Assembly (NCBI GenBank): GCA_027068075.1
Contig: JAMOUJ010000004.1
Span: 1 to 50,019, forward strand
Direction: 5' to 3'
Length of the DNA stretch: 50,019 nt
Source of the DNA: Candidatus Aminicenantota bacterium
GTDB taxonomy: Bacteria > Acidobacteriota > Aminicenantia > S016-38
Below the pieces are notes generated by a model that saw nothing but the letters and a program-made list of their open reading frames with translations, did no database searches and was not told where the DNA came from. A program made the position numbers and the translations under genes. This document shows, in pieces, positions 399 through 18,953 of this stretch (positions are counted from its first letter, which is position 1; every line of letters starts with the position of its first letter).

Positions 399-667
399 AA
401 TAGAAAATAGATCGTTTGATTTAATGGGAGTTAGAAGAAGCTATGTAGAATATAAAAAGGACGGCAAGGAAAGGCGAGTTAATTACGAGAAAGAAAAGAA
501 TAATTAGTTCCAGAAACGGATGCTTTGACGAAAAATCCCCTTCCGCCAATCCTTCTTTTAAGGTTATAAAACACCTTGTGGCACAAGTCAAACTCAAAAA
601 TATCTCCTCTCCCCTTTGGGAGATTGCTCCCTTACAGGGAATATAAAGAAACCTCAATACAAGCGAA
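399..667. other. Intergenic stretch between candidate sRNA and CRISPR array
   Basis: No convincing gene is present. A 27-codon plus-strand frame (424-507, very basic, no Shine-Dalgarno) and a 78-codon minus frame (421-657) look like chance. A small stem TCTCCC-CTTT-GGGAGA at 608-623, with a run of five A on the plus strand at 596-600, could act as a weak terminator for leftward transcription leaving the array. Confidence 0.3.
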
Positions 668-3600: not shown

Positions 3601-4093
3601 GTATTTCCTCCGGTTTAAATTCCTCATTGGATGATTGCGGCCTAAGCACAATTTGTTTTACGCCCTACTTAAAAGAGTTTAAATTCCTCATTGGATGATT
3701 GCGGCATATCCAATTCCTGAAATGTTGTCCCCTTTAAGGTGTTTAAATTCCTCATTGGATGATTGCGGCTTGAAGGGTTCGCCCATCGTTTTGAGGACCT
3801 GGAGCCGTTTAAATTCCTCATTGGATGATTGCGGCAAAATTACTACGCCTGGAATATGTATTATAGCATCAGTTTAAATTCCTCATTGGATGATTGCGGC
3901 TCAGCCGGAGGCTTTCCAGGCGGCACAGGACATTTGTTTAAATTCCTCATTGGATGATTGCGGCGCCGCTATTGCCCCTCCCACAACAATCAGGTTCAAG
4001 TTTAAATTCCTCATTGGATGATTGCGGCCTACACTTCACGAGGTCTAACTCTGCGAAAAATCTCGTTTAAATTCCTCATTGGATGATTGCGGC
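668..4093 (-). CRISPR. Type I-B CRISPR array, 53 repeats and 52 spacers
   Basis: A 29-bp repeat (plus strand GTTTAAATTCC...GATTGCGGC) occurs 53 times with no sequence change that I can find, including the leader-distal copy at 668-696. Spacers are 35-39 nt. Read on the minus strand, the repeat begins GCCGCAATC and ends AATTTAAAC, so Cas6 cleavage would leave an ATTTAAAC-type 8-nt 5' handle as in other type I-B systems. The leader promoter at 4101-4129 and the cas operon also point left. Several spacers occur twice: 762-797 equals 827-862; 1809-1845 equals 2007-2043; 1875-1910 equals 2073-2108; 3447-3481 equals 3706-3740. The repeat has a weak hairpin (TCAT-CCA-ATGA on the minus strand). Confidence 0.98.
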
Positions 4094-4205
4094 AGTACAT
4101 ATTATGCCCTATTTACGGGGTTTCGTCAAGCATAATCCGGGAAATTTTGCGTCAAATCTCCGGCTCTGTCGTGCCGCTTCTATCCTCGGGGTTAGAACGC
4201 CCATC
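4094..4205 (-). promoter_or_regulatory. CRISPR leader
   Basis: This 112-bp segment between the cas2 stop codon and the first repeat is on the cas-proximal side and contains the array promoter. It has two TTGACG boxes on the minus strand about 25 bp apart, the nearer of which forms the promoter. New spacers are expected to be added next to it, at the repeat ending at 4093. Confidence 0.7.
4101..4129 (-). promoter_or_regulatory. CRISPR array promoter
   Basis: On the minus strand: TTGACG (4129-4124), a spacer of exactly 17 bases, and CATAAT (4106-4101). The start point falls near 4094, the base next to the first repeat, so the pre-crRNA would have essentially no leader RNA. Confidence 0.75.
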
Positions 4206-4487
4206 TTAAAGCACATTGTCCGTAGCATCCGGAGTCTCGGTAAGGATCTCCCTCTTCACCCTCAGACTTTCTGGAATTATGTAGATTATCAAACTATCCT
4301 TAGATAGGTTAAGATTTCTCTTCAATTCAGCCTTCAGTTTCGCAACCTGCCCTTCGCTTAGTTCTCCTTCAAACACGGACTTCTGGACATGGTGAAGGTA
4401 TTTTCGGCAGATTTTAAGAACCCTCCCTAAACGCTTCTGACCAGAGGCCTCCTCCGTAGATATGTCGTAATAAAGTATTACCTTCAT
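4206..4487 (-). CDS. cas2: CRISPR-associated endonuclease Cas2
   Basis: A 93-residue protein starting MKVILYYDIS, the ferredoxin-fold first strand of Cas2 with its conserved Asp. Cas2 forms the structural core of the Cas1-Cas2 complex that inserts new spacers. The start is taken as ATG at 4487, which overlaps the cas1 stop in a TGATG junction; an in-frame TTG at 4496 is also open. It is the last gene of the cas operon and lies directly before the leader and array. Length is normal for the family. The final residues (TETPDATDNVL) are less conserved. Confidence 0.95.
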   Translation of the reverse strand: MKVILYYDISTEEASGQKRLGRVLKICRKYLHHVQKSVFEGELSEGQVAKLKAELKRNLNLSKDSLIIYIIPESLRVKREILTETPDATDNVL

Positions 4488-5467
4488 CACCACCAAACCT
4501 TTAAAGGCTTATATATTTTCTCTCCCAGCAAATGCTTTATGAGTTTGTAAAGTTCAAGCCTAATCAAATTTTTGTATTTAATCCTGCGTCTCAACGCTCT
4601 GTGAAGTATAGTTTTTTCCAACTGGGCATCCAGTTCCCTTATAAAAGCCTTTCTTCCCTTCTCTCCAAGATAAACGAACTCCGGCTCCTCCAGAAAATCC
4701 TCCTCTTTCAATTGTCCCCTATCCACCATTCTGAAGATAACTTTGTCCACCAAAATCGGTTTGAAAACTTCAGAGACATCTAACGCAAGGGAAAAACGGC
4801 GAGCACCTGGTTCGTGTAGATAACTCACCGTAGGGTTTAAAGCAGTCATGTAAATCTCCCTGAGAATCAGGGCGTAAAGCATAGAATTTCCAAAGGAAAT
4901 CAAAGCGTTTAAAGGATTTCTGGGAGGCCGCATACTCCTTTCGCCGAACTCCCATCCGGTGATCTGCTCCCAGCAACTGAAGTAAACCCTTCTTCCGTAG
5001 GCTTCGGCAAGCATTAATTCGTTTATGCTCCCCACATGAGAGACCCTATCCACGGCTTCCTTTATTTTTTCTATCTGTTGGTAAAACCCTTCCCTTTTTT
5101 CCAGGTTTCTTTTCATGTTGTGGAGAGAGGATTCCACAAACTTTTTTGCTATGAAAAGACGCTTTTCTTTATCAAGGTAATGTTCCACCTGCCTCACCAC
5201 CAGGGTTCCTGATAGAAGGCTCTCCTTGGGGTAGAAACTTCCGGAGTAAAATCCATAGTAGTTAAAGACATGAAGGACAATTCCCTTTTGGGACAGAAAG
5301 TTTAAAAGTTTCGTGTTAAGGGCTATTTCTCCAAAGAGGAAAATCTGCTCCACTCCTTCCACAGGGATAGGTTTCTTCCCTTTTTCGCCCTCCAGAAAAA
5401 GGGTGTTCTGCCTGCGGCGAAGATGACCGCTGGAGAATATATAATAATTCTTTCCCATTATCCTCAT
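4487..5467 (-). CDS. cas1: CRISPR-associated integrase Cas1 (type I-B)
   Basis: About 326 residues, the usual length. It is the catalytic spacer integrase, acting as Cas1-Cas2 on double-stranded prespacers. The metal-binding residues are visible: Glu in NELMLAEAYGR (about 155), His in SYLHEPG (about 218) and Asp/Glu in ALDVSEVF (about 230-233). The N-terminal MGKNYYIFSSGHLRRRQNTL is typical of Cas1 from type I-B loci. The chosen ATG at 5467 overlaps the cas4 stop as ATGA; the next ATG (5458) precedes GKNYY and has GAGG close upstream. Tight overlap with cas4 and cas2 indicates translational coupling of the adaptation module. Confidence 0.96.
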   Translation of the reverse strand: MRIMGKNYYIFSSGHLRRRQNTLFLEGEKGKKPIPVEGVEQIFLFGEIALNTKLLNFLSQKGIVLHVFNYYGFYSGSFYPKESLLSGTLVVRQVEHYLDKEKRLFIAKKFVESSLHNMKRNLEKREGFYQQIEKIKEAVDRVSHVGSINELMLAEAYGRRVYFSCWEQITGWEFGERSMRPPRNPLNALISFGNSMLYALILREIYMTALNPTVSYLHEPGARRFSLALDVSEVFKPILVDKVIFRMVDRGQLKEEDFLEEPEFVYLGEKGRKAFIRELDAQLEKTILHRALRRRIKYKNLIRLELYKLIKHLLGEKIYKPLKVWW

Positions 5468-5985
5468 ACAAAGCAAAAATTATAATAGGCGCAAGTTCTG
5501 CAATAACCTCTCTTTTTAACAGGCGGTGGAGATTTCATTGCCTTTATTTTTCTTATCTCCTTTATGGCTCTTTCTATCCTTTCTTCGTCTTCTTCTTCCA
5601 GTTCCACCTCCTCCTTTCTCATGGCCTTCGGATAATGGATTATGGCAGTTCTGCAGTTCAGTCCCATGCGGCGCAGTTGATAGATGTAAAACTTCACCTG
5701 GAGTTTGTGGGCGTGGTCAAGTTTTCTGGATTTTTTCACCTCGTGGATTACTATCTCGTCGCCAAAGCGGATAAAATCAAATTTTGAGCCCTCCACTATC
5801 TCAACCTCTTTGTGTCTTTCCCGGCGAAAAGTCATTTCGGAGAGGAGTTTTCCTATAAACACAGTGTCTGAGAAGGGCTCCATGCGAAGGCCGTGGGAGA
5901 AAAGCCAGAGTTTTCTTGGGCAGATGAGGTAATAAGCGACCTCAGTTCCCCGGACTATCATTTGGGGAGTTATAGGTTCATTCAT
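5464..5985 (-). CDS. cas4: CRISPR-associated exonuclease Cas4
   Basis: A 173-residue RecB-like nuclease that trims prespacers and helps select those with a PAM. The Fe-S cluster ligands are Cys22 (LICPRKLWL) and the C-terminal Cys162, Cys165 and Cys171 (GYCRTCAYYNFC). The nuclease core has Asp70 and the E82-V-K84 motif of the PD-(D/E)XK fold. It starts with ATG at 5985 inside the end of cas3, behind AGGAG, and ends in an ATGA overlap with cas1. Placement beside cas1-cas2 supports a role in adaptation. Confidence 0.95.
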   Translation of the reverse strand: MNEPITPQMIVRGTEVAYYLICPRKLWLFSHGLRMEPFSDTVFIGKLLSEMTFRRERHKEVEIVEGSKFDFIRFGDEIVIHEVKKSRKLDHAHKLQVKFYIYQLRRMGLNCRTAIIHYPKAMRKEEVELEEEDEERIERAIKEIRKIKAMKSPPPVKKRGYCRTCAYYNFCFV

Positions 5986-8755
5986 TCTCCTGTTGTTCTT
6001 TATCGGTTTTGCCGCCGGGCGGAAGGAGACCTTCTTCTTCGCTGTATTCCAGGTCTACCACATAAATTCCCTGAAGGTAGCGGCTAAGTTTTCTGGGGAT
6101 GTCATCTGAAAGATAGCTCGTAAAGGGATTGAGGTCCTTTTTATAATTCCACTTTAAAGTAGGCTCGTTTACCGGCACGACGAATTTGTTTATGAAATCC
6201 CTTTTGAAATCAGTATATGTCTCTTTATCTTCCGCGAATTTCTTTAACTCTCCTATCGCCTCTTCTACCTTGCCCTCAGGAATTACATTCACGCTGCGAA
6301 TCTCTCTGAAAAGACGATGCGCTTCGTCCTTCTGCTCCGACACATAGCCTGCCTCAAGCACATCAAGGGTGTTGTAAAACTCTTGAAGGTAGTCTACCCG
6401 CCTGAGAAAATCGGTATTGTATACCTCCTCAACCCATTTCTTTTTTATCCTTTCTTCTAAAACCATAGAAAAAACAGATGCGTTGGTTTCTTCTTTTTTT
6501 CTTCCCTTCTTTTTCAATTTCAGAATCCTTTCCACTTCGCTTTTCAATTTTTTCCTTTCCAAGTCAGCGAGGAAATCTTCGCCTTCTTTATTATCTTTCA
6601 GTTTATGAAGAGTATAAATCGTAGCTTCTATCAGATAATTTTCATAAACTTTCCCCTTTCCGGACTCGTAGCGTTTTCTGTCCTTTTCTTTCTTTTCGTC
6701 CACAAAAATCTTTACATTGGCTTCAATTTTTCCATTTGCTTCTTTTCCTTCTTTATAATATTTATTATAATCATCCTCACCCCATACTTTTCCTTTTTCC
6801 TGAGGCCTTATTCCTCTGAGCACCCTTCCCATGCGCTGAACTAAGGAGTCTGCCGGAGATATTTCCGTGTAAAGATAATCCGCGTCTATATCCAGGGAGG
6901 CTTCTACTATTTGGGTAGCGACCACGATGGCCCCTGTCTTACTATTCCACAGTTCCTCTTCTTTTTTTCTCTTTTTGAGTTTATCGGTTACGCCCTCCTT
7001 CTCTCCCACCTCTTTCCTTTTCCTGTCGTCAAATGTGAATCTTGAATGGAGAAGAATTGGAGTAATGGGGCTTTTGTCATCTCCTATCTCTTGTTTAATC
7101 TTCTCGTAAACATCCTGTGCCTTCTCCACAGTGTTTAGGACAACCAGGACTCTTTTTCCCTCGGAGGCTTTCTTCACAATTTCTTTTGCAACTCTAACTT
7201 CTTTTATATCCTCTTTTCTTATCTCCACCTTGTGCTTTTTGGGAAATTTAAATTTCCCCTTCCCAAAGAGGTCTATTTCTTCGTAATCCAGCCCTTTCAA
7301 AGCCTCCTTAACAAACTCCGGAAGGGTGGCGGTCATGAGGAGGAATTTTCCTCCCAGGGCGGTAATATCTTTTATGAGTTTTACCACTATGGCGGCTGCC
7401 TTTGGGTCGTAAGCCTGGACTTCGTCAATTATGAGGCGGGAATAGCCCAGAGTGGCATAAATCTTTTCGTATCCAGGATAGCGGAGGGCTGATGGAAAGA
7501 ACTGGTCTCCGGTGGCGATTATTACAGGAAGGGAAAGGTGGCGGGAAAGTTCAAGGGTGAGGAAAGCCTCTCCTTCCTGGTCTTCGCTCCTTTCTGCGAG
7601 AAAGATGTCCGCATCGCTGTGGAGAAGACCTACGATGCGGTTTTCTTCCTTAATCCCTCCCTTTTTTCCTGTTTCGGGTGCTTCCTTATCTTTCTCTTTC
7701 GTTTCCTTTTCAAAAATCTTTTGCGCTCTCTCAAATATCTGATTTGTGGCAACCCTCAGGGGAAGCGTAAAAATGAATTTTTCCCCTTCTCCCCAGGCAA
7801 AGGCGAATTCAGTTTTTCCGATTCCTGTGGGCGCGATGAGGAGGATGTTTTTTTCATTTAAATCTTGCTCTTTCTCAAAAATCTTCCTTTGCCACCACTT
7901 AGAGGGAAGAGATTCAAGAAACTTAACTTCTGGGAACCTTTTTTCTATTAAAATCTTTTCTTTCTTCTCTTTATCATACTTCTTCAGCCACGAAGCGAAG
8001 TGGTCTGCCCTCATGAGAAAGCCAGCCAGGAAGACCCAGGTAAAACTTTCCTTCTCATCTTCAACAATACTCTTCAATCTAACAGGCAAAAACTCCAAGG
8101 TATAAGGAGGGTAGAAAATTTTAGTCTGGATAAAAGTTCCTCCGTTCGCTATGTATTCGGTAAAATCCTTATGAAATTCTACCAATCCCGCCCAATTTTT
8201 ATAAAATTCTCCTTTAAACTCGTCTTCCTTCTCTTTTAGTTCCTTCAACAATTTTTCCTCTAAGGCTTCCCCTAAAGTCCTATTTTCCCATGTTTTAAGC
8301 AAATTTTTCGCGGTAGCATGGAGAGAAGTTTTAATACCATAAAGTATGCTTTTTGAATCTGTCCGCCAGTGGTGGAAGGCAATGGCGGAATATAAAAGAG
8401 GGGCTATGGTTTTCCATTTATCCTTGTCCTCGGTTATGAAATTCAGGGCTCTTTGCTTATTAAGGAAAAATACCGAAAGGAGGTTGTGCTGGACGCGTGG
8501 AAGATTATCTTTTTCTAACCCTTTCATATAGCCTTCGTTTGCCAGGTCCCACTGGAATCTGGGCCAAACTTTTCCGAAATCGTGGGCAAAGGCTGCAACG
8601 AGGAGCATTTTACGGAACTCTTCCTTGGTCAATCCATTCTCCGTCCCAAATCTTATTTTTTTCTCAACCCCTTTCCACAATTCCTTTGCCCATCTCAGCA
8701 CATCTAAAGTATGGGCGGAAAGGGTTGTCTCGTCACTCTTAGCCCATACTCCCAT
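5978..8755 (-). CDS. cas3: CRISPR-associated helicase-nuclease Cas3 (HD domain fused)
   Basis: A 925-residue effector nuclease recruited by Cascade to shred target DNA. The N-terminal HD nuclease domain has His15, the His58-Asp59 pair (FAHDFGKVW) and downstream His residues (VQHNLLS, AIAFHH), with ADHFASWL near 250. The SF2 helicase follows: Walker A PTGIGKT at 309-315, DEVQ at 444-447, MTAT at 474-477, and the C-terminal QRMGRVLR motif. HD and helicase are in one chain, the usual type I-B form. A strong GGAGGAGG precedes the ATG, which overlaps the end of cas5 by 17 bases; its own end overlaps cas4. Confidence 0.97.
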   Translation of the reverse strand: MGVWAKSDETTLSAHTLDVLRWAKELWKGVEKKIRFGTENGLTKEEFRKMLLVAAFAHDFGKVWPRFQWDLANEGYMKGLEKDNLPRVQHNLLSVFFLNKQRALNFITEDKDKWKTIAPLLYSAIAFHHWRTDSKSILYGIKTSLHATAKNLLKTWENRTLGEALEEKLLKELKEKEDEFKGEFYKNWAGLVEFHKDFTEYIANGGTFIQTKIFYPPYTLEFLPVRLKSIVEDEKESFTWVFLAGFLMRADHFASWLKKYDKEKKEKILIEKRFPEVKFLESLPSKWWQRKIFEKEQDLNEKNILLIAPTGIGKTEFAFAWGEGEKFIFTLPLRVATNQIFERAQKIFEKETKEKDKEAPETGKKGGIKEENRIVGLLHSDADIFLAERSEDQEGEAFLTLELSRHLSLPVIIATGDQFFPSALRYPGYEKIYATLGYSRLIIDEVQAYDPKAAAIVVKLIKDITALGGKFLLMTATLPEFVKEALKGLDYEEIDLFGKGKFKFPKKHKVEIRKEDIKEVRVAKEIVKKASEGKRVLVVLNTVEKAQDVYEKIKQEIGDDKSPITPILLHSRFTFDDRKRKEVGEKEGVTDKLKKRKKEEELWNSKTGAIVVATQIVEASLDIDADYLYTEISPADSLVQRMGRVLRGIRPQEKGKVWGEDDYNKYYKEGKEANGKIEANVKIFVDEKKEKDRKRYESGKGKVYENYLIEATIYTLHKLKDNKEGEDFLADLERKKLKSEVERILKLKKKGRKKEETNASVFSMVLEERIKKKWVEEVYNTDFLRRVDYLQEFYNTLDVLEAGYVSEQKDEAHRLFREIRSVNVIPEGKVEEAIGELKKFAEDKETYTDFKRDFINKFVVPVNEPTLKWNYKKDLNPFTSYLSDDIPRKLSRYLQGIYVVDLEYSEEEGLLPPGGKTDKEQQENE

Positions 8756-9590
8756 TTCCTCCTCCGATTTTCACAAAAATTAAGGGAATTTTCTTCCCAT
8801 CCACTTCGTCCCAGGGGAACTTATAGGGTTCGGCGGTAGGCTTTAAGGGAAGTCCCCCTTTTTCAAAGAGTTTCGCCCTTACGAAATCAAAGTTTCTGAC
8901 GCCATTCCTTATCTCGTAAAATGTAGGGACCCTGTGATAGGTGGCATAGATGTTTTCAAAGAAATCATCATAATCCTCAGGAGGATTCCAGATGCAAGAA
9001 GATTTCTCCGGTATCCAGGCAAAATAAGGCAGGGCACCAACGGGAGCCTTTTCCCCAATTTCCCTTATCTGAAGTTCCTCAATTATTACCAGGTCCTCTG
9101 CCCTTCCAAGGTGGAGAGGATAAAGCCATCCTGAGGGCTTCTGAAAAGCCTCTTTTATCTTCTTGAGAAATTCCTCTTCTTGGTGTCCGAGATAAATCAG
9201 CAGTTCCACATTTTCAAGAACATCCACCCTGACAGGGGTCTGACCTCCGGGGTGTTCTGGAACCCCATCCAAGAAGCGGTTGGCGGCTGAGCTGAAGCGC
9301 TTGGCCTCTGGACCGAAGCGATTTTCATGAGCGCTTTTAGAAAGATTTCTGAACCACACATATTCCCTGGTAAGGCTTTCGTATCTTCCGTAAATGGCCA
9401 TGCGAAGTTTTTTGAGATTCTCAAAATCCTCGCCTTTCTGCTCCCTTATACCCAATATGTTGCAGAGCATACCTATAACTGTAGAGAAGGGAGGGATGGG
9501 ATATGTGTGCCTTCTTGAAAAGGTAAAGGGCACCCTGTAGTGGGTAGAGGGCTGGCGAAGTTTGATGTGAAGAAGTTGAAGATTACTCAT
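8739..9590 (-). CDS. cas5: Cascade subunit Cas5 (Cas5t type)
   Basis: A 283-residue RAMP protein that caps the 5' handle of the crRNA in Cascade. The N-terminal block HTYPIPPFSTVIGMLCNILG is the conserved Cas5 signature (PPxSTxxG) followed by the glycine-containing loop. Length is slightly above the family norm. It starts 4 bases after the cas7 stop with no clear Shine-Dalgarno, so it probably depends on re-initiation by ribosomes finishing cas7. The Cas5t assignment rests on its company of Cst1- and Cst2-like proteins. Confidence 0.93.
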   Translation of the reverse strand: MSNLQLLHIKLRQPSTHYRVPFTFSRRHTYPIPPFSTVIGMLCNILGIREQKGEDFENLKKLRMAIYGRYESLTREYVWFRNLSKSAHENRFGPEAKRFSSAANRFLDGVPEHPGGQTPVRVDVLENVELLIYLGHQEEEFLKKIKEAFQKPSGWLYPLHLGRAEDLVIIEELQIREIGEKAPVGALPYFAWIPEKSSCIWNPPEDYDDFFENIYATYHRVPTFYEIRNGVRNFDFVRAKLFEKGGLPLKPTAEPYKFPWDEVDGKKIPLIFVKIGGGNGSMG

Positions 9591-9594
9591 TTTG

Positions 9595-11430
9595 CTATAA
9601 GTTTTTAATTTCTTCTTCTATTTTCTCAAGCGTTTCATCCTGAGGGCTTTTTTCAAGTTTAGCTTTTATTTTTTCTTTTATTTCTGTTTGGTTCAGATTT
9701 TTTGCTTCTTCAAGCGGGAGTGTAAAGATCTCTTCAAATTTGAGTTTTTTATTTTTATACCGAAGTCTAACCCTTCCTCCCTTCAATAGTTGCACCTCTG
9801 CTACCGTTTTTATTGCTACCGTTTTTATCGGCTCTTTCTCTACAACCTCCTCTCCCTCGGGTGCTTCCTCTTCTTCCTCCGTTTCTACTTTCACTGAGGC
9901 TTCCTTTTTTTCTTCATCCATCGGTTCTTTTTGTTCTACAAACTCCTCTCCCCTGGGCATTTCCCCATCTTTTTCTTCCTTCGGTTTTACCTCCTCTGAG
10001 GGCTCTTTTTTTTCTTCCTTATCCGTCTTATCCGAACATAATTTTCCAAGGAGCTTTGTAATAAATGTTTCCCTGTACCCTTCATATCCATCCCCTATTA
10101 TGTTCTCATCATTTTCTTCCTTTCCCTCCTTCCCATCTTTCCTTTCCCCTCCAATTCCCCCCGTTATATTCTCATCAAATACACTTTCCACATAAATCTT
10201 CTCCACCCAAGGATTCTTGGCCGCTTTTCTGAATACATCTTTGTCGATCTCAAATGTATCTCTTCCTATATTCTTTACCACTACATAATTGTGAAGGACT
10301 GGTATGGGAACTTTCACTATGGCGGCGGCGAAGAACAGAGGGGTAATGCCGTAATTCTCCGTGGAGGAATGATAGATAAGCCCTCCCCTGAGGGCTTCAA
10401 GGACATCCTGAATCCGGCAAATCCTTTTTTCTTTATTCAATACCAGTTTAATTTTTTTGCTTTCCAAAGAACTGGCATCTTGATCTATCCATTCTAATGG
10501 AATTTTTACTTCTATAGTCGTCGTTAAAAACCAGACATCTTTCCCATTATCTTTACCTGTTTTAACAGCAGTGTCTGGTAAGTCTAAGACAACCCCATCG
10601 TCTTCCGATTTCCTCCTTATAGGCAAAGAATATTCTTTTTGGCCGACTTTAAGCACCAGCTTCCCTTTCTTTATCTTATCTTCAATTTTCTTCATATAAA
10701 AGTGAATCTCGCTGTTTTCCCTCTTAAATTTAACCTTTGTACTTCTTCCTACTTTTCCTTCGTATTCTTTGCCATCCTTTATCTCTTCACATTCTCCCTC
10801 GGGAGTGATTTTTACTTGTTCTCCGGGAATTTTTATAATCACCTCCTTTACTTCTTTTTTTTCAATCTCTTCCTTGTTAGCTATTTCATATTTATAAAAT
10901 TCGTCTATAACCCCAATTCTCTCCAGGTCCAATGTGAAGGAAACCTTGAAAAACCCCAGAAATTCCTCTTTGTTGTAAAGGTCCGGCTCCGCATTATATC
11001 CTTGCTCTCTTCCTCTTCTTACCTGGTCATGATTAGAATAAAAAGCCATATCCCCTTCCCAGGGTTCCAGACCTTCCGCCTTTGTAATTCCTAAAGGAGC
11101 TTTTCTCGTTATAGAATTCTGCCCGGAAATAGTAACCATATATCCAAAGAGGTCAAGTTCGGCCTTAGTAATGGCATTTCCTTTTCTCAGGTCAAATTGA
11201 ATAACATCGTTTTGGGCTAATCTAACCTCTGCGGGAGCCCATCTATCTCTATTTTTCTTCCATAGCGTATACCACAAATAATGTCTCATAGCCGGACGAG
11301 AGATATAAGGATAGACCTTTCCATCGCCCCTTTTCAGTTTTTTAATCGTGAGGATATTTCCCCCTGCCTTCTCATCTCTGTTCAGGGCAGAGGCTTTGAA
11401 AATCATAGTTATAGTTACGGCGTTTTTCAT
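9595..11430 (-). CDS. cas7: Cascade backbone subunit Cas7 (Cst2/DevR family), greatly enlarged
   Basis: A 611-residue relative of Cst2/DevR Cas7, the subunit that polymerises along the crRNA spacer; family members are usually 300-350 residues. The core is split. Residues 1-180 carry the N-terminal RAMP part (MIFKASALNRDEKAGGN, SRPAMRHYLW). Residues 336-425 carry the C-terminal part (IQDVLEALRGG, HSSTENYGITPLFF, PVLHNYVVV). Between them sit about 150 extra residues (183-335), rich in Lys/Glu and predicted beta strands. After residue 425 come a Gly/Lys-rich linker, an acidic low-complexity stretch (about 464-535, with a partial internal duplication of a PxGEExVE-x-EP block) and a final helical domain (545-611). 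It has AAGGAGG before the ATG. No frame interruption is seen, so the extra parts appear to be translated. Confidence 0.92.
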   Translation of the reverse strand: MKNAVTITMIFKASALNRDEKAGGNILTIKKLKRGDGKVYPYISRPAMRHYLWYTLWKKNRDRWAPAEVRLAQNDVIQFDLRKGNAITKAELDLFGYMVTISGQNSITRKAPLGITKAEGLEPWEGDMAFYSNHDQVRRGREQGYNAEPDLYNKEEFLGFFKVSFTLDLERIGVIDEFYKYEIANKEEIEKKEVKEVIIKIPGEQVKITPEGECEEIKDGKEYEGKVGRSTKVKFKRENSEIHFYMKKIEDKIKKGKLVLKVGQKEYSLPIRRKSEDDGVVLDLPDTAVKTGKDNGKDVWFLTTTIEVKIPLEWIDQDASSLESKKIKLVLNKEKRICRIQDVLEALRGGLIYHSSTENYGITPLFFAAAIVKVPIPVLHNYVVVKNIGRDTFEIDKDVFRKAAKNPWVEKIYVESVFDENITGGIGGERKDGKEGKEENDENIIGDGYEGYRETFITKLLGKLCSDKTDKEEKKEPSEEVKPKEEKDGEMPRGEEFVEQKEPMDEEKKEASVKVETEEEEEAPEGEEVVEKEPIKTVAIKTVAEVQLLKGGRVRLRYKNKKLKFEEIFTLPLEEAKNLNQTEIKEKIKAKLEKSPQDETLEKIEEEIKNL

Positions 11431-11441
11431 TGTTCACCTCC

Positions 11442-12905
11442 TTATTTTTTCTCCTCTCCCAGCACTCCGCTGAGAAAGGCGTATATATGTGATTTTTGAA
11501 GTTCCTGGTCCTGTTCTCTCAGAATGTTAACCAGGTCCGATGGTATAGGAGTGCGGCTTGCAATAAAGACTCTGGCTATTGCCTGGTAGGCGTCATTTAT
11601 CCTTCCCAAGCGAGTAAGTTCCAGAATACGGAAGGACAGATTTTTAAAGTTATCTTTTAACTCCCTGGAATTGACCCCAGCATAATAAACTGCCCGGACT
11701 TTTTCGTCCTTCGTTTTTTCTTCTCCCATTTTATCCTCCTTCTTTGTTAATTGCTTTATCCTGGCAAAAAGCAGGGGGAGTTTCTGGAACATTTCCCCTG
11801 CCCTATTTTTGTTGCCACCGTATTTGTAAACGCAATGATTGTCGGAAATACTATCAGCGAGATGAGCCTTAGCGGCGCAGTATGTGGCAACGAGAAGTTC
11901 GGAATACTTCCCCCTCATTACCAGTTCTAAGATAGGCCAGAGGTGGAGGGAAGTTATGAGGCTTGCGGCTACGGGGTCCATGAGGACACTTACCACATCG
12001 GGAGGAAGGTCAAAGTGGTCTATGATGTTACCTTTTTTCCTTATAACCTCTATATTAGCCATGGTCCAGGCGCCCAAGGTCTGATTTATCCTCATTGCCC
12101 ACTGCATAAGGGAAAGGCCGAAAAGTTTTCTCGTATCCTTAGCCTCCCCCTTTTCATACATCTCCCTTACAAACTTATTCAAATACCACATAAGGCGAAA
12201 ATCCGGAGCATTGATGAAGATTTCGTCCCCGTCTGAGGTTCTGGTGAAGGCTAAAGGATAGTGAAGGATCATGTAGGTGCAGGTAAGACAAATGGGCATG
12301 GAAGCATTAAGATTCCAGAAAGAATTAGGAAATTCTCCCGAAGAAGAACCCAACCCCTTTATGTGTTGAGATGAAAAGGTGTAAAATTTATCAAAATTTT
12401 CCCTCTTTTTAAAATTTCTACCACAAATTGAACATGTATGTATTTCTCCGCCTACTTGTTTTTCTCTATAGATTGCAAAATATAACAAATCATTTATCTT
12501 TTTTATTTCGTCTTCCTTCTTATCAGAGGACATCTTTCTTTTCCCAAACAAGCTTGGATTAAAAAGATTTCGGAAAAACTTATTGAATACAGAACCCCAA
12601 TATTTTTTTACAGGATTTTCTTCTCCTTCCTCATCTTTATTTTTTCCCCCGATAGCAGAAAAATACCACTCCCAAATTTGGTAGATCTCTGCCTTTAAGC
12701 CATCTTCAATGACGATTGTTTTCTTTTTAAATGCTTCCTCCGGGAGAGAAAAGCAATTATTTTCAAAAAATTTTTTGAGTTTATCTTCAAAATTCTTCTT
12801 CTCATCCTCAAATCCCTCCTCCAGCACCCTCAAAAACCCAATCACCCCAGCGTTGTAGAGCCAGTTGGACGGATAAAGTTCTAATTCTCTTTCTTCTCCA
12901 GGCAT
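11442..12905 (-). CDS. cas8: Cascade large subunit Cas8 (Cst1, CXXC-CXXC type)
   Basis: A 487-residue protein of the Cst1/Cas8a1-like CXXC-CXXC family, the subunit that recognises the PAM and recruits Cas3. The paired zinc-ribbon cysteines are Cys158-x2-Cys161 (TCSICGRNF) and Cys206-x2-Cys209 (ICLTCTYM). The N-terminus YPSNWLYNAGVIGFLRVLE is the conserved opening of the family. The long helical C-terminal half probably supplies the Cas11-like part. A strong AAAGGAGG precedes the ATG, which lies 25 bases inside the cas6 end. Together with Cst2-type Cas7 and Cas5t it defines the Tneap variety of type I-B. Confidence 0.92.
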   Translation of the reverse strand: MPGEERELELYPSNWLYNAGVIGFLRVLEEGFEDEKKNFEDKLKKFFENNCFSLPEEAFKKKTIVIEDGLKAEIYQIWEWYFSAIGGKNKDEEGEENPVKKYWGSVFNKFFRNLFNPSLFGKRKMSSDKKEDEIKKINDLLYFAIYREKQVGGEIHTCSICGRNFKKRENFDKFYTFSSQHIKGLGSSSGEFPNSFWNLNASMPICLTCTYMILHYPLAFTRTSDGDEIFINAPDFRLMWYLNKFVREMYEKGEAKDTRKLFGLSLMQWAMRINQTLGAWTMANIEVIRKKGNIIDHFDLPPDVVSVLMDPVAASLITSLHLWPILELVMRGKYSELLVATYCAAKAHLADSISDNHCVYKYGGNKNRAGEMFQKLPLLFARIKQLTKKEDKMGEEKTKDEKVRAVYYAGVNSRELKDNFKNLSFRILELTRLGRINDAYQAIARVFIASRTPIPSDLVNILREQDQELQKSHIYAFLSGVLGEEKK

Positions 12906-13792
12906 ACTTCCTCCTTTAACTGGGCCAATACATCCAGCATGCCGAAGCCCTGCCCCGTTCTCACCCCCATGCCGTATTGGTAGACAAATTGAAGAAGTTC
13001 CACGGGACCACAGAGGAGGAAAACACCTTTGAATCCGCGAAGGGCATGGACGCCGTAGTGCTTAATCCTGGTGGTCTTTATGGGCTTTTGCACAAAGGTT
13101 TTATCCAATTTTCCCCAGCGGGAAAGTATCTCCATTGCCAGGGGATTTTTTACTTCTTTAAACCTTAAATCTCCTTTAAGTTCCTTCCCTTTAGTCCGCC
13201 TGTAATCTTCAAAAAGCCTCTGGCGCAAAATCTCCTCCCACCCATCATCCCCTGGCACTACATAATAGCCTTCTTCTCCTTCCTCTTTCTTCAACGGCTC
13301 CTTTGGGGCCGTAATTATAACCGGCTGCTTGGTCTTAAAAAGCACTGCTCTGCTCTTTATAACTTCCTCCCTCGCTAAGGTAATTTCTCCCACCTTCAGG
13401 TGCAAGGGTTGAGCCTTGGTTATGCTGCTCAGGTTCAAGGAATAACCGTTGGAGCGGAGTCTTAAAACCCCGTTGTAAAAATGGGAGGCTATCAAGGGGT
13501 CGCCGGTGGAAAAGAGGAATTCGTAAGGAAGGGAGGTCAGGAGGTAGTCGCTTCCTTCAATGGTGCGGAAGGCTTTTCCCAGGTAAACGGAAAAGGTGAA
13601 GGGCTTTCTCGGAGGAAGGAGTCTTTTGCCGTCGGCTCCTCCAGGAATTCGGCTATTGTAGAGGCGCTCATAAACTTCCCTACCAGCGGCAGCGAATACA
13701 TCCTTGAGGAAGGAAATAAACCTCCGCCTGTAGTCCCGGTCTAACAAAACCTCCCCTTTCCCCTCCTCATCTAAAATCACCTTCAATCTCAT
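12881..13792 (-). CDS. cas6: CRISPR RNA endonuclease Cas6
   Basis: A 303-residue RAMP endoribonuclease that cuts the pre-crRNA within repeats. The C-terminal glycine-rich loop GMGVRTGQGFGMLDVL is the Cas6 hallmark, preceded by KHYGVHALRGFKGVFLL. The His commonly used for catalysis in the first 50 residues is not visible: no His occurs before about residue 100, so catalysis may rest on other residues such as Tyr37/Tyr41 or Lys/Arg. It is the first gene of the operon, with GGGGGGAG immediately before ATG and an extended -10 promoter about 15 bases upstream. Confidence 0.93.
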   Translation of the reverse strand: MRLKVILDEEGKGEVLLDRDYRRRFISFLKDVFAAAGREVYERLYNSRIPGGADGKRLLPPRKPFTFSVYLGKAFRTIEGSDYLLTSLPYEFLFSTGDPLIASHFYNGVLRLRSNGYSLNLSSITKAQPLHLKVGEITLAREEVIKSRAVLFKTKQPVIITAPKEPLKKEEGEEGYYVVPGDDGWEEILRQRLFEDYRRTKGKELKGDLRFKEVKNPLAMEILSRWGKLDKTFVQKPIKTTRIKHYGVHALRGFKGVFLLCGPVELLQFVYQYGMGVRTGQGFGMLDVLAQLKEEVCLEKKEN

Positions 13793-13859: not shown

Positions 13860-15482
13860 TCATCCTCCGAAGAGTTCTTTTTCTATTTGTTTTATGCGGG
13901 TGCGGTATTCTTCTTCGGCCTCCTGGATTTTGCGAAGGCGCTCCTGCTCGGCGTTTTTTATCTTATCCGCCAGGGCTTTTGCTTTTTTGGGGGGATATTT
14001 GGGGACGGGGAGGTCCTCCAGGTCTCTGGGCGAAAGGCTCAGAAACCTCAGGCTGCGGCGGCTTACTTCCAGGAGGCTCTTTCCCATTTCGGAGGAGAAG
14101 AAGAACCGCAGAAGGGCGGACGGGTATTTTTTAGGGGTGATGACTATGACGGAGTCGGTGGGGAGGATTTTTTCCTCGGTGGGCGGGATCTCTGCCACTT
14201 TGAGGACGGTCCCCCTGGCGGATATAACTATGTCCCCGGGCTTCAGGGGGCGGTATTCCTTCATGGATTCTTCGTCTATTTTTATTTTGGCCAGTTCCTC
14301 CGGGTTTATGATGCCTTCCTTTATGTCCCCCACGCTGAGGAGGCGGTGGGTGTAGGCTTCCCCTTCTTTGACTTCCTCGGTTCTTCTCAGGAAGTATCCC
14401 CTCCTTATCTTTGCCACTTCCCCCAGGGGAACTTTGGAGGTTTTTTGAAAGAATTTGAGAATTTTCTCCCTGTCCCCGGATAAGAGGAATTCAGGGCTCC
14501 AGGTGGTTATGGTTTCCAGTTCCCTCCGGGATACGATGTCCGTTTTTCTTCTGTCTATCACCTGGGCCTGATAGTCTTCGGCCTTTTCTTTGGTGAAGAC
14601 CAGGGCCACGATGTCCCGCAGGTTGGGCTCTGAACCGAAGAAAATCAGTTTTTCTACACGGTAGGAGGCCAGGGTCTTCTTGTCCTCCAGGTAGGCGGCG
14701 GAGGTGAAGAAGTTTCTGGGCAAAACCACGAAGAAGTGAACTCCCTGGGGAGCCTCCTCTATGGTCCTGAGAAATCTCTTTACGGGCAGTTCCATCCTGA
14801 GGCGTATTCTTCGGGAAATGGGGGCCATTAAAACAAGGTCCCCGGGGGAGAAGTTTTCCGTAGGGTTCACCCGCTCTTCGCTCACCGAAGCCCAGGGATG
14901 GTCCTTGGTCAGGTATTTGAGGAAGAGCACCACTCCCTTTTCTGCCCTTATCCCCGGATAGAGGCGAATCTCTTTGCCCTTGAGTTTCCTGAGCCAGAAG
15001 AGGAGGCATGGGATGAAGAGTTCGGCGTTGAGGATGTGAATTTTCTCGGCCTTCTCCACTTCTTCCAGGGCCTTGTGGCATACCTCCTGGGGAAGGTAAT
15101 AGGACCTGAAAACCTCTTCCTTGAAAAGGCGTTCCAGGAAGGAGGGGGTATCCTTAGCCACCGTGTATATGGAGAACAACTCCTGAAAGAGTTCGGCATC
15201 GCCGGGGAGACGCCTCATGAGGTATTCCTGGTTTTCTTTCTCAGCCTCCTTCATGTAGGAGTAGAGAATGTCCCTGACGGAGGGGTCTTCCACCTTTTCC
15301 AGGAGTTCGGGCTCGTTGGCCTCTATTAGTTTGCGGGTGGCGTCCATTCTTATGACTTCGCAGAAGATGTGCTCGTCCCTCTCCACGAATTCTTTAATTT
15401 TCTGGGTGAAATCCATAACCATCATTTCCTCCTCTTCAATAAAAACCGTCTTTCCATCCATTATACCAAAATACCAACCCAT
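13860..15482 (-). CDS. Degenerate HsdM-HsdS-like fusion protein, copy 1
   Basis: A 540-residue protein. The C-terminal half resembles one target-recognition domain of a type I specificity subunit. It has VPLGEVAKIRRGYFL, then LKPGDIVISARG, LRFLSLSPRDLEDLPVPKYP, and a terminal coiled coil (about 500-538). The N-terminal half aligns by eye with an N6-adenine methylase (HsdM): a YYLPQEV block, then a late PRNFFTS...YRVEKLIFFGS...VALVFTKEKAEDY block like the region after NPPY. However, the motif I position reads RLYPGIRAEKG and the catalytic NPP(Y/F) position reads DLVLMAPIS, so methylation looks impossible. It has an N-terminal extension of about 25 residues not in the other copies, with AGGAGG before ATG. 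It probably binds DNA or a partner; function unknown. Confidence 0.75.
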   Translation of the reverse strand: MGWYFGIMDGKTVFIEEEEMMVMDFTQKIKEFVERDEHIFCEVIRMDATRKLIEANEPELLEKVEDPSVRDILYSYMKEAEKENQEYLMRRLPGDAELFQELFSIYTVAKDTPSFLERLFKEEVFRSYYLPQEVCHKALEEVEKAEKIHILNAELFIPCLLFWLRKLKGKEIRLYPGIRAEKGVVLFLKYLTKDHPWASVSEERVNPTENFSPGDLVLMAPISRRIRLRMELPVKRFLRTIEEAPQGVHFFVVLPRNFFTSAAYLEDKKTLASYRVEKLIFFGSEPNLRDIVALVFTKEKAEDYQAQVIDRRKTDIVSRRELETITTWSPEFLLSGDREKILKFFQKTSKVPLGEVAKIRRGYFLRRTEEVKEGEAYTHRLLSVGDIKEGIINPEELAKIKIDEESMKEYRPLKPGDIVISARGTVLKVAEIPPTEEKILPTDSVIVITPKKYPSALLRFFFSSEMGKSLLEVSRRSLRFLSLSPRDLEDLPVPKYPPKKAKALADKIKNAEQERLRKIQEAEEEYRTRIKQIEKELFGG

Positions 15483-15515
15483 TTGTAACCTCCTTTATTT
15501 TTTAAAAAATTTGTT

Positions 15516-17105
15516 TTACTCGCCGGCGCCCCTGAGGATAATTTCCCTTTCCAGTCGTTTTCTCTGGGAGCGGTATTTCTCTTCGGCCTCCTGGATTTTG
15601 CGGAGGCGCTCTTCTTCGGCCTTCTGCAGGTTTTCGGCTAAGGCCTTTACCGTCCCGGGGGAAAGTTTCGGCACGGAAAGTTTCATCAGGCGCTTCTCGA
15701 GCGGTGTTGAGGAAGGAAAGTGAATGTGAAGCGATATCATAAGAGCGCGGCCTATCTCCGAGGAAAGGAAAAGACGAAGAAGGGAGGAGGGGTATTTTCT
15801 GGGTCTGATTACCATTACATATTTACCAGGCAGGATTTTTTCCCTGGTGGGGGGAATTTCCTTGACCGGCAAATAATAACTGGAGGTATTTACGACTAAA
15901 TCCCCGGGCTTTAGGGAAGGGCATTTACTCGCTATTTTTTCGTTAAGTTGTACTTTGGGAAGTTTCTCAATGTCTACCCATTTAGATTTACCCGTTATTT
16001 CTTCCTTTACTAAAAGCCTGTGGGTGTAGTCTTCAGCCTCGTCCTCCAGTTCTTTTAACTCAGGCAAGAAGCACCCCTCCATTATGCTTGCCACTTCCCC
16101 CAGGGGAATTTTAGGGGTCTTCTGGAAGAACTCCAGAATTTCTTCCCTCTCATCCGCCAAAAGGAGTTCGGGATTCCAGAGGGTTATGATTTCAAGTTCG
16201 CTTCGGGAGACCTCCTTCCTCTGTCGGGAAAGTATGACCTCTGCCCGGTAGTCCCCGGCCTTTTCTTTGGTTAAAACCAGGGCGCCCAGGTTGCTCAAAC
16301 TGAGGTCTTTTCCGAAGAAGATGAGTTTTTCTATGCGGTAGGTGGTAAGTCTCCTTTTCAAGTCAGCGAGTTTAGCGGAGGTGAAGAAGTTTCTGGGAAA
16401 CACGATAAAGAACCGCACGCCATCCGGGGATTTTAGAACGGGAAGGAAATCCTTCCTCCGGGGAAGTTCCCACCCCGGGTATGCCTTCGTGAAAATGGAG
16501 GTCATAATGACGAGGTCTCCCGGGGAGAATTCCTCCTCATCGGGAATCGTCACCTTTGGGTTGCCCTTGCTGAGATAGCGGAAAAAAGCGTATACGCCTT
16601 TCTCCATCAGGGGGCCCGGGTAAAGCCGTATCCTTTTCTCCTTGAGTTTTCGCAGTTGTTCGGGGAAGCAGGAAAGAAAAACCTCTGGGTAGAAAACATG
16701 GAGTGTCTCATGCTCCTCCGCTATTTCAAAGGCCTTCTGGCAAACCTCCCTGGGGAGATAGTAGGACTTAAAAAAGAGAATCTCAAACAACGCATTGAGG
16801 AAGGCTACGGTATCTTCCGCATCCATGTAAACGGAAAACATTTTTTGAAAGAAGTCTGCATCCCCGGGAAGGGGTCTTATAAGATAGGTTTCGTTTTCCT
16901 TTTCCGCCTTTTTCATGTAGGCGTAAAGGGCTTCTTTCGCTGAGGGGTCGTTCACCTTCTTTAAAAGTTCTGGCTCCTCCCTTTCTATAAGTTTTCGGGT
17001 GGCGTCCATTCTTATAACTTCGCAGAAGATGTGCTCGTCCCTCTCCACGAAGGGAGAAAGCATCCTCCAAAAGGCGTAAAGTTTTTCCAAAAACTCGTTC
17101 CTCAT
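15516..17105 (-). CDS. Degenerate HsdM-HsdS-like fusion protein, copy 2
   Basis: A 529-residue paralogue of the genes on both sides, starting at an ATG with AAAGGAGG. The N-terminal block FVERDEHIFCEVIRMDATRKLI is shared almost exactly with copy 1, while the block DPSAKEALYAYMKKAEKEN is shared with copy 3. The methylase motif positions read RLYPGPLMEKG and DLVIMTSIF, so both SAM-binding and catalytic signatures are absent. The HsdS-like part starts at IPLGEVASIMEGCFL. The stretch expected to contact bases (about 375-440) differs most from the other two. The C-terminal coiled coil (AEEERLRKIQEAEEKYRSQR) is kept. It lies in one operon with its siblings, with gaps of 33-34 bases. Confidence 0.75.
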   Translation of the reverse strand: MRNEFLEKLYAFWRMLSPFVERDEHIFCEVIRMDATRKLIEREEPELLKKVNDPSAKEALYAYMKKAEKENETYLIRPLPGDADFFQKMFSVYMDAEDTVAFLNALFEILFFKSYYLPREVCQKAFEIAEEHETLHVFYPEVFLSCFPEQLRKLKEKRIRLYPGPLMEKGVYAFFRYLSKGNPKVTIPDEEEFSPGDLVIMTSIFTKAYPGWELPRRKDFLPVLKSPDGVRFFIVFPRNFFTSAKLADLKRRLTTYRIEKLIFFGKDLSLSNLGALVLTKEKAGDYRAEVILSRQRKEVSRSELEIITLWNPELLLADEREEILEFFQKTPKIPLGEVASIMEGCFLPELKELEDEAEDYTHRLLVKEEITGKSKWVDIEKLPKVQLNEKIASKCPSLKPGDLVVNTSSYYLPVKEIPPTREKILPGKYVMVIRPRKYPSSLLRLFLSSEIGRALMISLHIHFPSSTPLEKRLMKLSVPKLSPGTVKALAENLQKAEEERLRKIQEAEEKYRSQRKRLEREIILRGAGE

Positions 17106-17139
17106 TACTTCCTCCTTTTAAGATTTTTATTCAGGCGGC

Positions 17140-18732
17140 TCAATTTTTATCAAATTCATTTGAACCCCTGATTATTTGTTTTTTTATTTCCTTTATGCGG
17201 GTGCGGTATTCTTCTTCGGCCTCCTGGATTTTGCGGAGGCGCTCCTGCTCGGCGGCGCGGAATTTTTCCGAGAGAGTTTTTCCCACCTCAGGGGAAAGTT
17301 TCGGCACGGGAAGTTCCCTCAGGCGCTTCGGGGTTAAACTCAGAAAAAGGGAGGAGATGTGTATGGCTTCCATAAGAGCGTGGCCTATCTCCGAGGTAAG
17401 GAAAAGACGAAGAAGAGAGGAGGGGTATTTTCTGGGTCTGAGCACTATTACATACTCGGAAGGTAGAATCTTTTCCCTGGTGGGGGGAATCTCTCTGACC
17501 GAAAAATTAAACCAGCCGAAGGTGTCTATTACCAAATCCCCGGGCTTCAGGGGACGGTATTTCCTCGCCATCTTTTCGTCAAGTTTTACTTTGGTGAGTT
17601 TTTCAGGGTTCACCCATCCAGTTTTTTTACTTATGGAGCCCCTCAAGACTCTGTGGGTGTAATCTTCAGCGTCGTCGCTCAGTTCCCTTAAATGTAAGGA
17701 GTATCCCTTCCTTACGCTTGCCACCTTCCCCAGGGGAATTTTAGGAGTCTTCTGGAAAAACCCCAGGACCTTTTCCATGTCATCCGCCAAAAGGATTTCG
17801 GGATTCCAGAGGGTTATTACCTCAAGTTCCCTGCGGGATACCAAGCGGCAATCTTTTTCTTGCATGACCTCCACTTTGTAATCTTCACCCTCTTTATTCG
17901 TGAGAACCAGGAACGCAAGGTCCAGGGGATAGCGCCCCCCTTCAAAGAAATACATCTTTTCCAAACGGTAAGGAATCCAGGCTTGCCTAACTTTTGTGGT
18001 TTCAGCCTTTACCAAAATCTCCCTGAACATCACTATTACAAAACGGACATTTGACGGGGCTTTTTCAATTCGGTTAAAAACATCTATGATGGAAAAGATT
18101 ACTCGGGATTTCCGCCAGAAAAAAGGCGCCATAATCACGAGGTCTCCGGGGGAAAATTTCTCGTTTTCCGCGACCTCCACCCCGGGGTACATTTTGGCCA
18201 GATAGCGCAGAAAAACCTTTATGCCTTTCGTGGCTTGAGGCCCGGGATGAAGCCAGATTTTTCTATCCTTAAGTTTTCCCAGAATTTCGGGCAGATAGGA
18301 GAGGAAAAGTTCTGCCTCAAAGACATGGATCCTTTCTGCCCCCTCAGAGAATTCAAAGGCTTTCCGGCAAACCCTTTCCTCCAGGAATTCGGTGTTCAGG
18401 AAAGGATGATTGAATAGGGTTTTGAGGAAGGAAACGGTATCCCCAATCTGCATGTATATAGAAAACATTTTCTGGAAGAGGTTTGGATCTTTGGGAAATC
18501 TTCTAAGGATAAACTCCCGATTTTCCTTTTCCGCCTTTTTCATGTAGGCGTAAAGGGCTTCCTTCGCTGAGGGTTCGTTCACCTTCTTTAAAAGTTCTGG
18601 ATCCTCCCTTTTTATTAGTTTCCAGGTGGCATCTACCCTTATTATTTCACCTAAAATTTCCTCGTCCTTCCTCGTAAGCGAGGGGACTTCATCCAGAAAT
18701 TTTCTAACTGTGTGCCAGAAAGAATCAATCAT
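17140..18732 (-). CDS. Degenerate HsdM-HsdS-like fusion protein, copy 3
   Basis: A 530-residue paralogue. The start is set at the ATG at 18732 because AAGGAGG lies 5 bases before it and this gives the same length as copy 2; an upstream in-frame extension lacks such support and overlaps a small frame. Motif positions read WLHPGPQATKG (motif I) and DLVIMAPFF (instead of NPPF). The specificity-like part begins IPLGKVASVRKGYSLHL, and the terminal coiled coil AEQERLRKIQEAEEEYRTRIKEI is nearly identical to copy 1. It ends with a short polar tail (RGSNEFDKN). First large gene of the operon. No HsdR or intact methylase is present in the window. Confidence 0.75.
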   Translation of the reverse strand: MIDSFWHTVRKFLDEVPSLTRKDEEILGEIIRVDATWKLIKREDPELLKKVNEPSAKEALYAYMKKAEKENREFILRRFPKDPNLFQKMFSIYMQIGDTVSFLKTLFNHPFLNTEFLEERVCRKAFEFSEGAERIHVFEAELFLSYLPEILGKLKDRKIWLHPGPQATKGIKVFLRYLAKMYPGVEVAENEKFSPGDLVIMAPFFWRKSRVIFSIIDVFNRIEKAPSNVRFVIVMFREILVKAETTKVRQAWIPYRLEKMYFFEGGRYPLDLAFLVLTNKEGEDYKVEVMQEKDCRLVSRRELEVITLWNPEILLADDMEKVLGFFQKTPKIPLGKVASVRKGYSLHLRELSDDAEDYTHRVLRGSISKKTGWVNPEKLTKVKLDEKMARKYRPLKPGDLVIDTFGWFNFSVREIPPTREKILPSEYVIVLRPRKYPSSLLRLFLTSEIGHALMEAIHISSLFLSLTPKRLRELPVPKLSPEVGKTLSEKFRAAEQERLRKIQEAEEEYRTRIKEIKKQIIRGSNEFDKN

Positions 18733-18847
18733 TTGATCCTCCTTGGTCCTTCCGTTTTTTCTCAACACCCATTTCCCCTGCCTCCGCCCGGCGGATGGTA
18801 GGCCCGTAAACATCCCCAAGTTCCATGGTCACCTTCAAATCCTTCAT
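18725..18847 (-). CDS. Candidate 40-residue protein coupled to copy 3
   Basis: A short frame, ATG at 18847, with GGAGG 7 bases upstream. It runs to a TGA at 18725-18727, just inside the next gene, whose ribosome site it contains. The product starts MKDLKVTMELGDVYGPTI and ends in a Lys/Arg-rich tail; it has no recognised domain. It could be a real small protein or a leader peptide coupling translation of the operon. The good ribosome site and overlap argue for translation; there is no homology support. Confidence 0.4.
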   Translation of the reverse strand: MKDLKVTMELGDVYGPTIRRAEAGEMGVEKKRKDQGGSND

Positions 18848-18867: not shown

Positions 18868-18953
18868 TTACTAAGTATATTATACATAACTTGTCAAGCG
18901 TAAAAGAAGATTAATATTATTATGATAGTATCAAAATACTTTTTAGTAAGTAT
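18868..18953 (-). promoter_or_regulatory. Control region of the three-paralogue operon
   Basis: An AT-rich stretch with two direct copies of TTA(C/G)TAAGTAT (18868-18878 and 18943-18953, 75 bp apart). An inverted repeat AGTAT-CAAA-ATACT lies at 18927-18940. On the minus strand there is a TATAAT at 18884-18879 and a TTGACA at 18897-18892. The TTGACA is only 7 bases from TATAAT, so they cannot be one promoter: either TATAAT works with a poor -35, or TTGACA pairs with TTAGTA 17 bases on. Repeated boxes flanking the promoter suggest a regulator. Confidence 0.4.

Follow-up and report, generated by a model that had tools for sequence, protein, structure and literature searches.

Catalytically degenerate methylase-specificity fusions beside a CRISPR-Cas operon as candidate regulators of their own promoters

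Three genes in tandem stand beside a type I-B CRISPR-Cas operon in the genome of a Candidatus Aminicenantota bacterium (GenBank assembly GCA_027068075.1). We analysed them within a window of 50,019 nucleotides, positions 1 to 50,019 of contig JAMOUJ010000004.1. Their products, A, B and C, are fusions of a methylase-like (M) half, with a degenerate methyltransferase (MTase) domain, to a specificity (S) half, with a single target-recognition domain (TRD); the features of the locus are collected in Table 1. An initial annotation made from the sequence had described the genes as tandem paralogues of about 530 residues, and so they proved. The open reading frames (ORFs) are intact and co-directional, contain zero internal stops, are separated by gaps of 33-34 bp and encode proteins with 49-53% pairwise identity. 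For C, an upstream TTG at 18819 is a possible alternative start. Alongside A, B and C, which belong to the source genome (G000), we studied protein D of genome G298 and proteins E and F of genome G232, giving six family members from three Aminicenantes genomes. Overall, the paralogues and D, E and F are 29-53% identical to A, and all six frames are full length without internal stops.

Table 1 Positions of the M-S genes and associated features, in window coordinates unless a locus (L) is named
Feature	Position	Strand	Basis or remark
M-S protein A, 540 aa	13860..15482	minus	ORF list, sequence comparison, predicted structure
Domains of A	helical N-domain and degenerate MTase domain, residues ~21-337; TRD, 348-497; C-terminal coiled coil, 498-538		
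A, HsdM-like half without signatures of motif I, II, III or IV	14472..15482	minus	
A, single HsdS-like TRD and coiled coil	13869..14441	minus	
M-S protein B, 529 aa	15516..17105	minus	
M-S protein C, 530 aa	17140..18732	minus	ATG at 18732
Possible 40-codon leader ORF with good ribosome-binding site	18725..18847	minus	overlaps C start codon; sequence reading
Second GTA(N5)TAC palindrome upstream of C, GTATAATATAC	18875..18885	minus	overlaps TATAAT (-10) box
Candidate operator upstream of C, GTATTTTGATAC, within AGTATTTTGATACT	18928..18939	minus	one of two exact genome copies
cas6	12881..13792	minus	67 bp downstream of A
cas8b, cas7, cas5, cas3, cas4, cas1, cas2 (rest of type I-B operon)	4206..12905	minus	
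CRISPR array, ~46 repeats or more of GTTTAAATTCCTCATTGGATGATTGCGGC	644..4100	plus	
Plasmid-borne genes with degenerate motif IV	L012 4696-6594; L013 4768-6597; L015 6662-8464		annotated 'N-6 DNA methylase' or 'subunit M/S'
Further genes with degenerate motif IV	L017 4686-6479; L036 4977-6794; L037 4974-6797; L038-L041		same annotations

Sequence searches recognise only the C-terminal half of these proteins. A matches Methylase_S, a signal of that half, weakly in Pfam (E=0.01), Specificity_I among the PADLOC profiles (3.6e-12) and Esub1 in a PDB sequence search (6.6e-12). The Pfam search returned no relevant match for B or C. AlphaFold modelling that drew on six family members gave confident models of A (mean pLDDT 83.9, pTM 0.80) and C (pLDDT 84.6, pTM 0.79). 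In the model of A, residues ~13-337 align with the type I HsdM structure 2okc (Z 18.4, root-mean-square deviation 5.8 Å, 309 residues) and residues 348-537 with the single-TRD structure 8vsr (Z 19.6, 2.1 Å, 182 residues); the C-terminal half also matches the PacII S subunit, 7vru_C (Z 17.4). The model of C gave HsdM-like and TRD matches of the same kind, although its TRD has no Pfam match. Across both models, HsdM structures were matched at Z 17.4-19.3 over 305-312 residues and HsdS half-subunits at Z 18-20. The predicted structures settle the fold of A and C as the architecture that the initial annotation had read from the sequence, an HsdM-like half fused to one HsdS-like half with a coiled coil. 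The latter part is recognised by profiles, sequence and structure alike, and the N-terminal half, for which another fold would have spoken against that reading, matched HsdM structures instead.

Motifs I and IV are needed for methylation, and both have been lost. Where motif IV should read [DNS]PP[YFW], A, B and C have MAPIS, MTSIF and MAPFF, and D, E and F have no equivalent. At motif I, the GxG loop that binds S-adenosylmethionine (SAM) gives way to xPGxxxxKG or is absent. The strings quoted by the initial annotation (DLVLMAPIS, DLVIMTSIF and DLVIMAPFF; xPGxxxxKG, here YPGIRAEKG, YPGPLMEKG and HPGPQATKG) are all present, and the loss of both motifs that it reported extends further: motif I lies 39-44 residues from motif IV, compared with 79-84 in active HsdM, about 40 residues fewer, so that the motif II/III region has been deleted as well. 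All six family members share the motif losses. Because D, E and F are among them, the loss is ancestral, predating the duplication in G000, and does not bear out the parallel loss proposed for the three paralogues. Judged by these motifs, A, B and C are catalytically dead, their inability to methylate following from what is known of motifs I and IV.

The M-S family is under purifying selection. In nearly every comparison among its members, variation is greatest at third codon positions, and the ratio of nonsynonymous to synonymous change (NG86 dN/dS) is ~0.1-0.5 where computable. Across genera, conservation of A is highest in the TRD, which is 57% identical between A and E and 54% between A and D, compared with 31% and 39% for the MTase-like domain. 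In ordinary restriction-modification (R-M) systems, the TRD is the fast-changing part. A TRD that is kept while the MTase-like domain drifts is the opposite pattern, and it suggests a fixed DNA target. Within G000, the TRDs of A, B and C are divergent, and B and C do not have the usual GDIVISARGT loop. The nearest neighbour differs by domain, A pairing with B in the N-terminal half and B with C in the TRD (TRD dS 0.52), which suggests exchange between paralogues.

Like type I HsdM (2okc, 3lkd and 3khk; Z 17-19), the M-S proteins have a helical N-domain and a Rossmann MTase fold, but they are without motifs I and IV and the II/III region and carry a fused TRD of their own; unlike type I systems, their loci hold no partner HsdS or HsdR. 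CamA, M.TaqI, M.BseCI, the type IIG/IIL enzymes and PglX/BrxX likewise place an MTase and then a recognition domain in one chain. These enzymes keep an NPPY-type motif and a SAM site, whereas the M-S proteins have lost both. Esub1 (PDB 8vsq and 8vsr, the latter bound to Prx) shares with A one TRD followed by a helix, but as solved it is a chain of ~200 residues with no M half; our literature search found no paper on it. The TRD also resembles MAD5, the S-type subunit of the methylation-associated defence system (MADS; NF047740, E=2e-8), at 33.5 bits compared with an NCBIfam equivalog cut-off of 400 bits, and no other MADS gene was seen in the part of the window examined.

The promoters of all three Aminicenantes M-S loci contain palindromes of the form GTA(N5-7)TAC. 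Two lie upstream of C. Three regions have a 12-mer, GTATTTTRATAC, or its reverse complement in common: the 111 bp that separate E from F, the promoter region of the D cluster and the sequence ahead of C. Sharing of this sort arises in 4 of 3,000 local dinucleotide shuffles. Whole genomes hold 0-2 copies of it, and each genome with M-S genes has one at an M-S promoter region: G232 has one copy (the E/F gap), G298 two (the D cluster and metG) and G000 two (C and another promoter). In G232 and G298, the 12-mer stands exactly 8 nt before TTGACA(17)TATAAT or TACAAT. Combining the 12-mer with TTGACA gave two matches in each of the three genomes, one of them the M-S locus, but one match in total in four genomes without M-S genes, and zero in reversed controls. 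We took as chance occurrences both the sites found where a genome has no M-S genes and the second matches of G232 and G298; most lie inside coding sequence such as groEL, metG and a RelA/SpoT-like gene (names read from translations). The other GTATTTTGATAC of G000 (L026 3345-3356; G000:C7:28344-28355) occupies the promoter of three unknown genes (190, 258 and 203 aa), for which we found no convincing family match, the first having no relatives in six other genomes. Overrepresented 5-mers upstream of C were not significant, and a simple scan for sigma-70 promoters and terminators scored hardly above shuffles.

Related fusions extend beyond this lineage. A tblastn search of plasmids with D reaches, via the TRD, M-S fusions of ~600 aa in Salimicrobium, Lactococcus, Lactobacillus, Paenibacillus, Sulfuricurvum, Oscillatoria, Aromatoleum, Aliivibrio, cyanobacteria and Subdoligranulum. 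This apparently little-described class is related by its recognition half and covers four phyla besides Aminicenantes; the TRD from Lactococcus is the best match of the A TRD outside Aminicenantes. The plasmid proteins share with the Aminicenantes ones their architecture, related TRDs, a degenerate motif IV and, in several cases, palindromic promoters, but they are linked to type I R-M rather than to CRISPR. Motif IV departs from [DNS]PP[YFW] in all 11 distinct loci (FPPF, FPPM, IPPF, VPPF, FPPI, HPPL, NFPF, DYPF, ILPT and SPPG), the eleven sequences having been chosen by similarity and coverage without use of the motif. The HsdM proteins that adjoin these genes keep NPP[FW]. Plasmid M-S proteins are less eroded than those of Aminicenantes, because the N6_Mtase profile still matches each of the nine scanned; in those measured, motifs I and IV are 71-79 residues apart. 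Genes of this class often open a type I R-M operon. Those of Salimicrobium, Lactobacillus, Lactococcus and Sulfuricurvum stand immediately ahead of hsdM-hsdS or are separated from it by one small gene; those of Oscillatoria and Aromatoleum come after a DUF4258 gene near restriction genes. DUF4258 genes stand directly upstream of M-S genes in three phyla (L036 4284-4787, L037 4673-4972 and L017 4435-4677), with weak recurrence in Sulfuricurvum, and the pair is a possible two-gene module, perhaps toxin-antitoxin-like.

We searched 128 kb around the eleven plasmid loci for GTA(N5-7)TAC with arms of at least 5 bp. M-S promoters, which make up 2.3% of this sequence, hold 7 of the 11 palindromes, in four loci: Lactococcus, Salimicrobium and Aromatoleum have two each and Oscillatoria has one with very long arms. 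None of 1,000 shuffles reached four loci. Palindromes from Lactococcus, AGTATT(N3)AATACT, share the half-site GTATT. Among the other frequent half-sites, none has an equally large promoter share; as many promoters or more contain AT-only half-sites (AAA, for example), but these are common everywhere. Because the best of all 64 half-sites reaches at least four loci in most shuffles, the test depends on the Aminicenantes loci having pointed to GTA first. On plasmid pOSC7112.01 (L036 4262 region), TAGCTCATACTATAAAAAAGTACGTCCTACTTTTTTATAGTATGAGCTA, an almost perfect palindrome whose arms reach up to 22 bp, sits at the promoter and start of the DUF4258 gene, which the M-S gene follows.

The gap between A and cas6 in the window contains an extended -10-like box, TGCTATAAT. 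Cas7 of the neighbouring operon (window 9595-11430, 611 aa) has a long Glu/Lys/Pro-rich C-terminal extension past the DevR profile match, which ends at ~residue 380. Members of the M-S family were found in 3 of 142 genomes of the class, all from one taxonomic family, and their association with I-B cas genes varies. The M-S genes adjoin the operon in G000. On a short contig of G298, D is followed by a PDDEXK_3 gene, cas6 and the contig end. E and F of G232 are divergent and lie near a Cas6 gene of family PF10040, and no I-B Cas7 was detected in that genome. The CRISPR link made by the initial annotation recurs in part: D of G298 is one gene upstream of cas6, but the Cas6 of G232 is of another type. 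The link is suggestive only. The PDDEXK_3 gene between D and cas6 (L008 1091-1507) is of the GxxExxY type. The annotation had also stated that HsdR and intact HsdM are missing, which holds for the window but not for the genome, since G000 has a complete, intact type I system (hsdM, hsdS and hsdR) on contig C6. None of the M-S loci of G000, G232 and G298 has an hsdM/hsdS/hsdR set at the locus. No relatives of the family were found among viral contigs and phage records, and a viral origin thus found no support. A scan of reference genomes gave none at first and, with a better alignment, only two known relatives.

We consider it reasonably probable that A, B and C are dead M-S fusions that serve as dimeric, sequence-specific autoregulators of their own locus, reading GTA(N5-7)TAC. 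The proteins are predicted still to fold, and the single TRD would bind specific DNA; the C-terminal coiled coil would pair two proteins, and the dimer would read both half-sites. A precedent exists in the single-TRD EcoR124I derivative EcoR124INT, which pairs with itself and reads the symmetric bipartite sequence GAA(N7)TTC (PMC3320862). By analogy, GTA(N5-7)TAC fits the same geometry. From sites that overlap the -10 box or lie just upstream of the -35 box, the M-S proteins would control their own transcription. Repression is suggested in G000 because the site covers the -10 box, and sites ahead of the -35 box could mediate repression or activation. Read-through from the C promoter may set the level of the downstream cas operon, and control of cas would need it, since a separate -10 box seems to serve cas6; G298 has a similar AT-rich box at cas6. 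This is the weakest step of the mechanism. The initial annotation had suggested a family of sequence-specific DNA-binding proteins with a defence or a regulatory role; with binding predicted, it is the regulatory option that gains from the promoter palindromes.

Several points weigh against autoregulation. Another linked factor could bind the sites. In G298, two genes and a terminator-like hairpin, over ~1.4 kb, separate the upstream site from D, and the cas6 promoter has no GTA(N5-7)TAC-type site. Seven of the 11 plasmid loci are without a GTA palindrome, and Subdoligranulum and Paenibacillus have other long palindromes instead. A test of long palindromes was weaker, with 5 of 10 M-S loci positive (Oscillatoria counted via its DUF4258 promoter) compared with 4 of 44 controls (Fisher p ~0.007). 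The first sites had already been seen when motif length, spacing and arm thresholds were chosen, so the significance values are optimistic and independent replication is needed. It is quite unlikely, though, that the palindromes are sites of an unrelated transcription factor and that the M-S proteins act otherwise at DNA, in the nucleoid or in replication. An unrelated unknown gene set does stand behind the second GTATTTTGATAC of G000, and some palindromic promoters front DUF4258 genes and not M-S genes directly; yet the same half-site is linked with M-S genes in several phyla, with no other constant regulator gene.

Stand-alone defence is an unlikely but somewhat stronger competitor, in which several dead M-S proteins of different specificity act as roadblocks or recruit an effector such as the neighbouring PD-(D/E)XK protein or the Cas machinery. 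The surroundings, CRISPR-Cas in the window and cas6 with PDDEXK_3 in G298, would suit such a role, as would the patchy spread of the family and the three tandem copies with divergent TRDs, two of them without the usual loop. However, the three loci have no nuclease or other effector gene in common, TRDs of the A type are conserved instead of diversified, and the palindromes in the proteins' own promoters point to self-control. The M-S proteins might also be extra specificity modules that join HsdM and HsdR of a type I system in trans and add a target, given that G000 encodes an intact type I system, that related fusions occur in hsdMSR operons and that the TRD and coiled coil are kept. We find this improbable. 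G232, estimated to be 100% complete, has two M-S genes, yet no HsdM, HsdS or HsdR was detected in it, so the proteins cannot generally be type I partners. Moreover, the M-S TRDs do not resemble HsdS of the same genome (the sole match, of F to that HsdS, is at chance level), each protein already has an M-like half, and the TRD is conserved across genera and not diversified. Least probable, and largely refuted, is that the genes are decaying remnants of an old M-S fused R-M enzyme that lie beside cas genes by chance. The lost catalytic motifs, the weak TRD signal of B and C and the restricted distribution could all be read as decay, but the intact frames and the codon-position pattern reject it. 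With six full-length frames kept at such divergence, excess third-position change and confident folds, the genes form a maintained family and not the frameshifted copies that the initial annotation had allowed for.

More tentatively, dead M-S fusions may be transcription factors across phyla, recognising GTA(N5-7)TAC-type palindromes in the promoters of their own genes and controlling defence operons, those of type I R-M in Bacillota, Campylobacterota and Pseudomonadota and those of CRISPR-Cas in Aminicenantes; we hold this wider claim less firmly than autoregulation in G000. A literature search that covered few subscription journals and preprints found no account of dead M-S fusions as regulators, a weak sign of novelty. 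A direct test is within reach, since the candidate operators are short, exact sequences and one of them occurs only once in its genome. If autoregulation is true, it would explain why genes annotated as 'N-6 DNA methylase' enzymes have lost the catalytic motif, and it would point to a likely regulator of type I R-M operons and of one CRISPR locus. It would also mean that gene regulators arose from restriction enzymes that lost their chemistry but kept the ability to read sequence.

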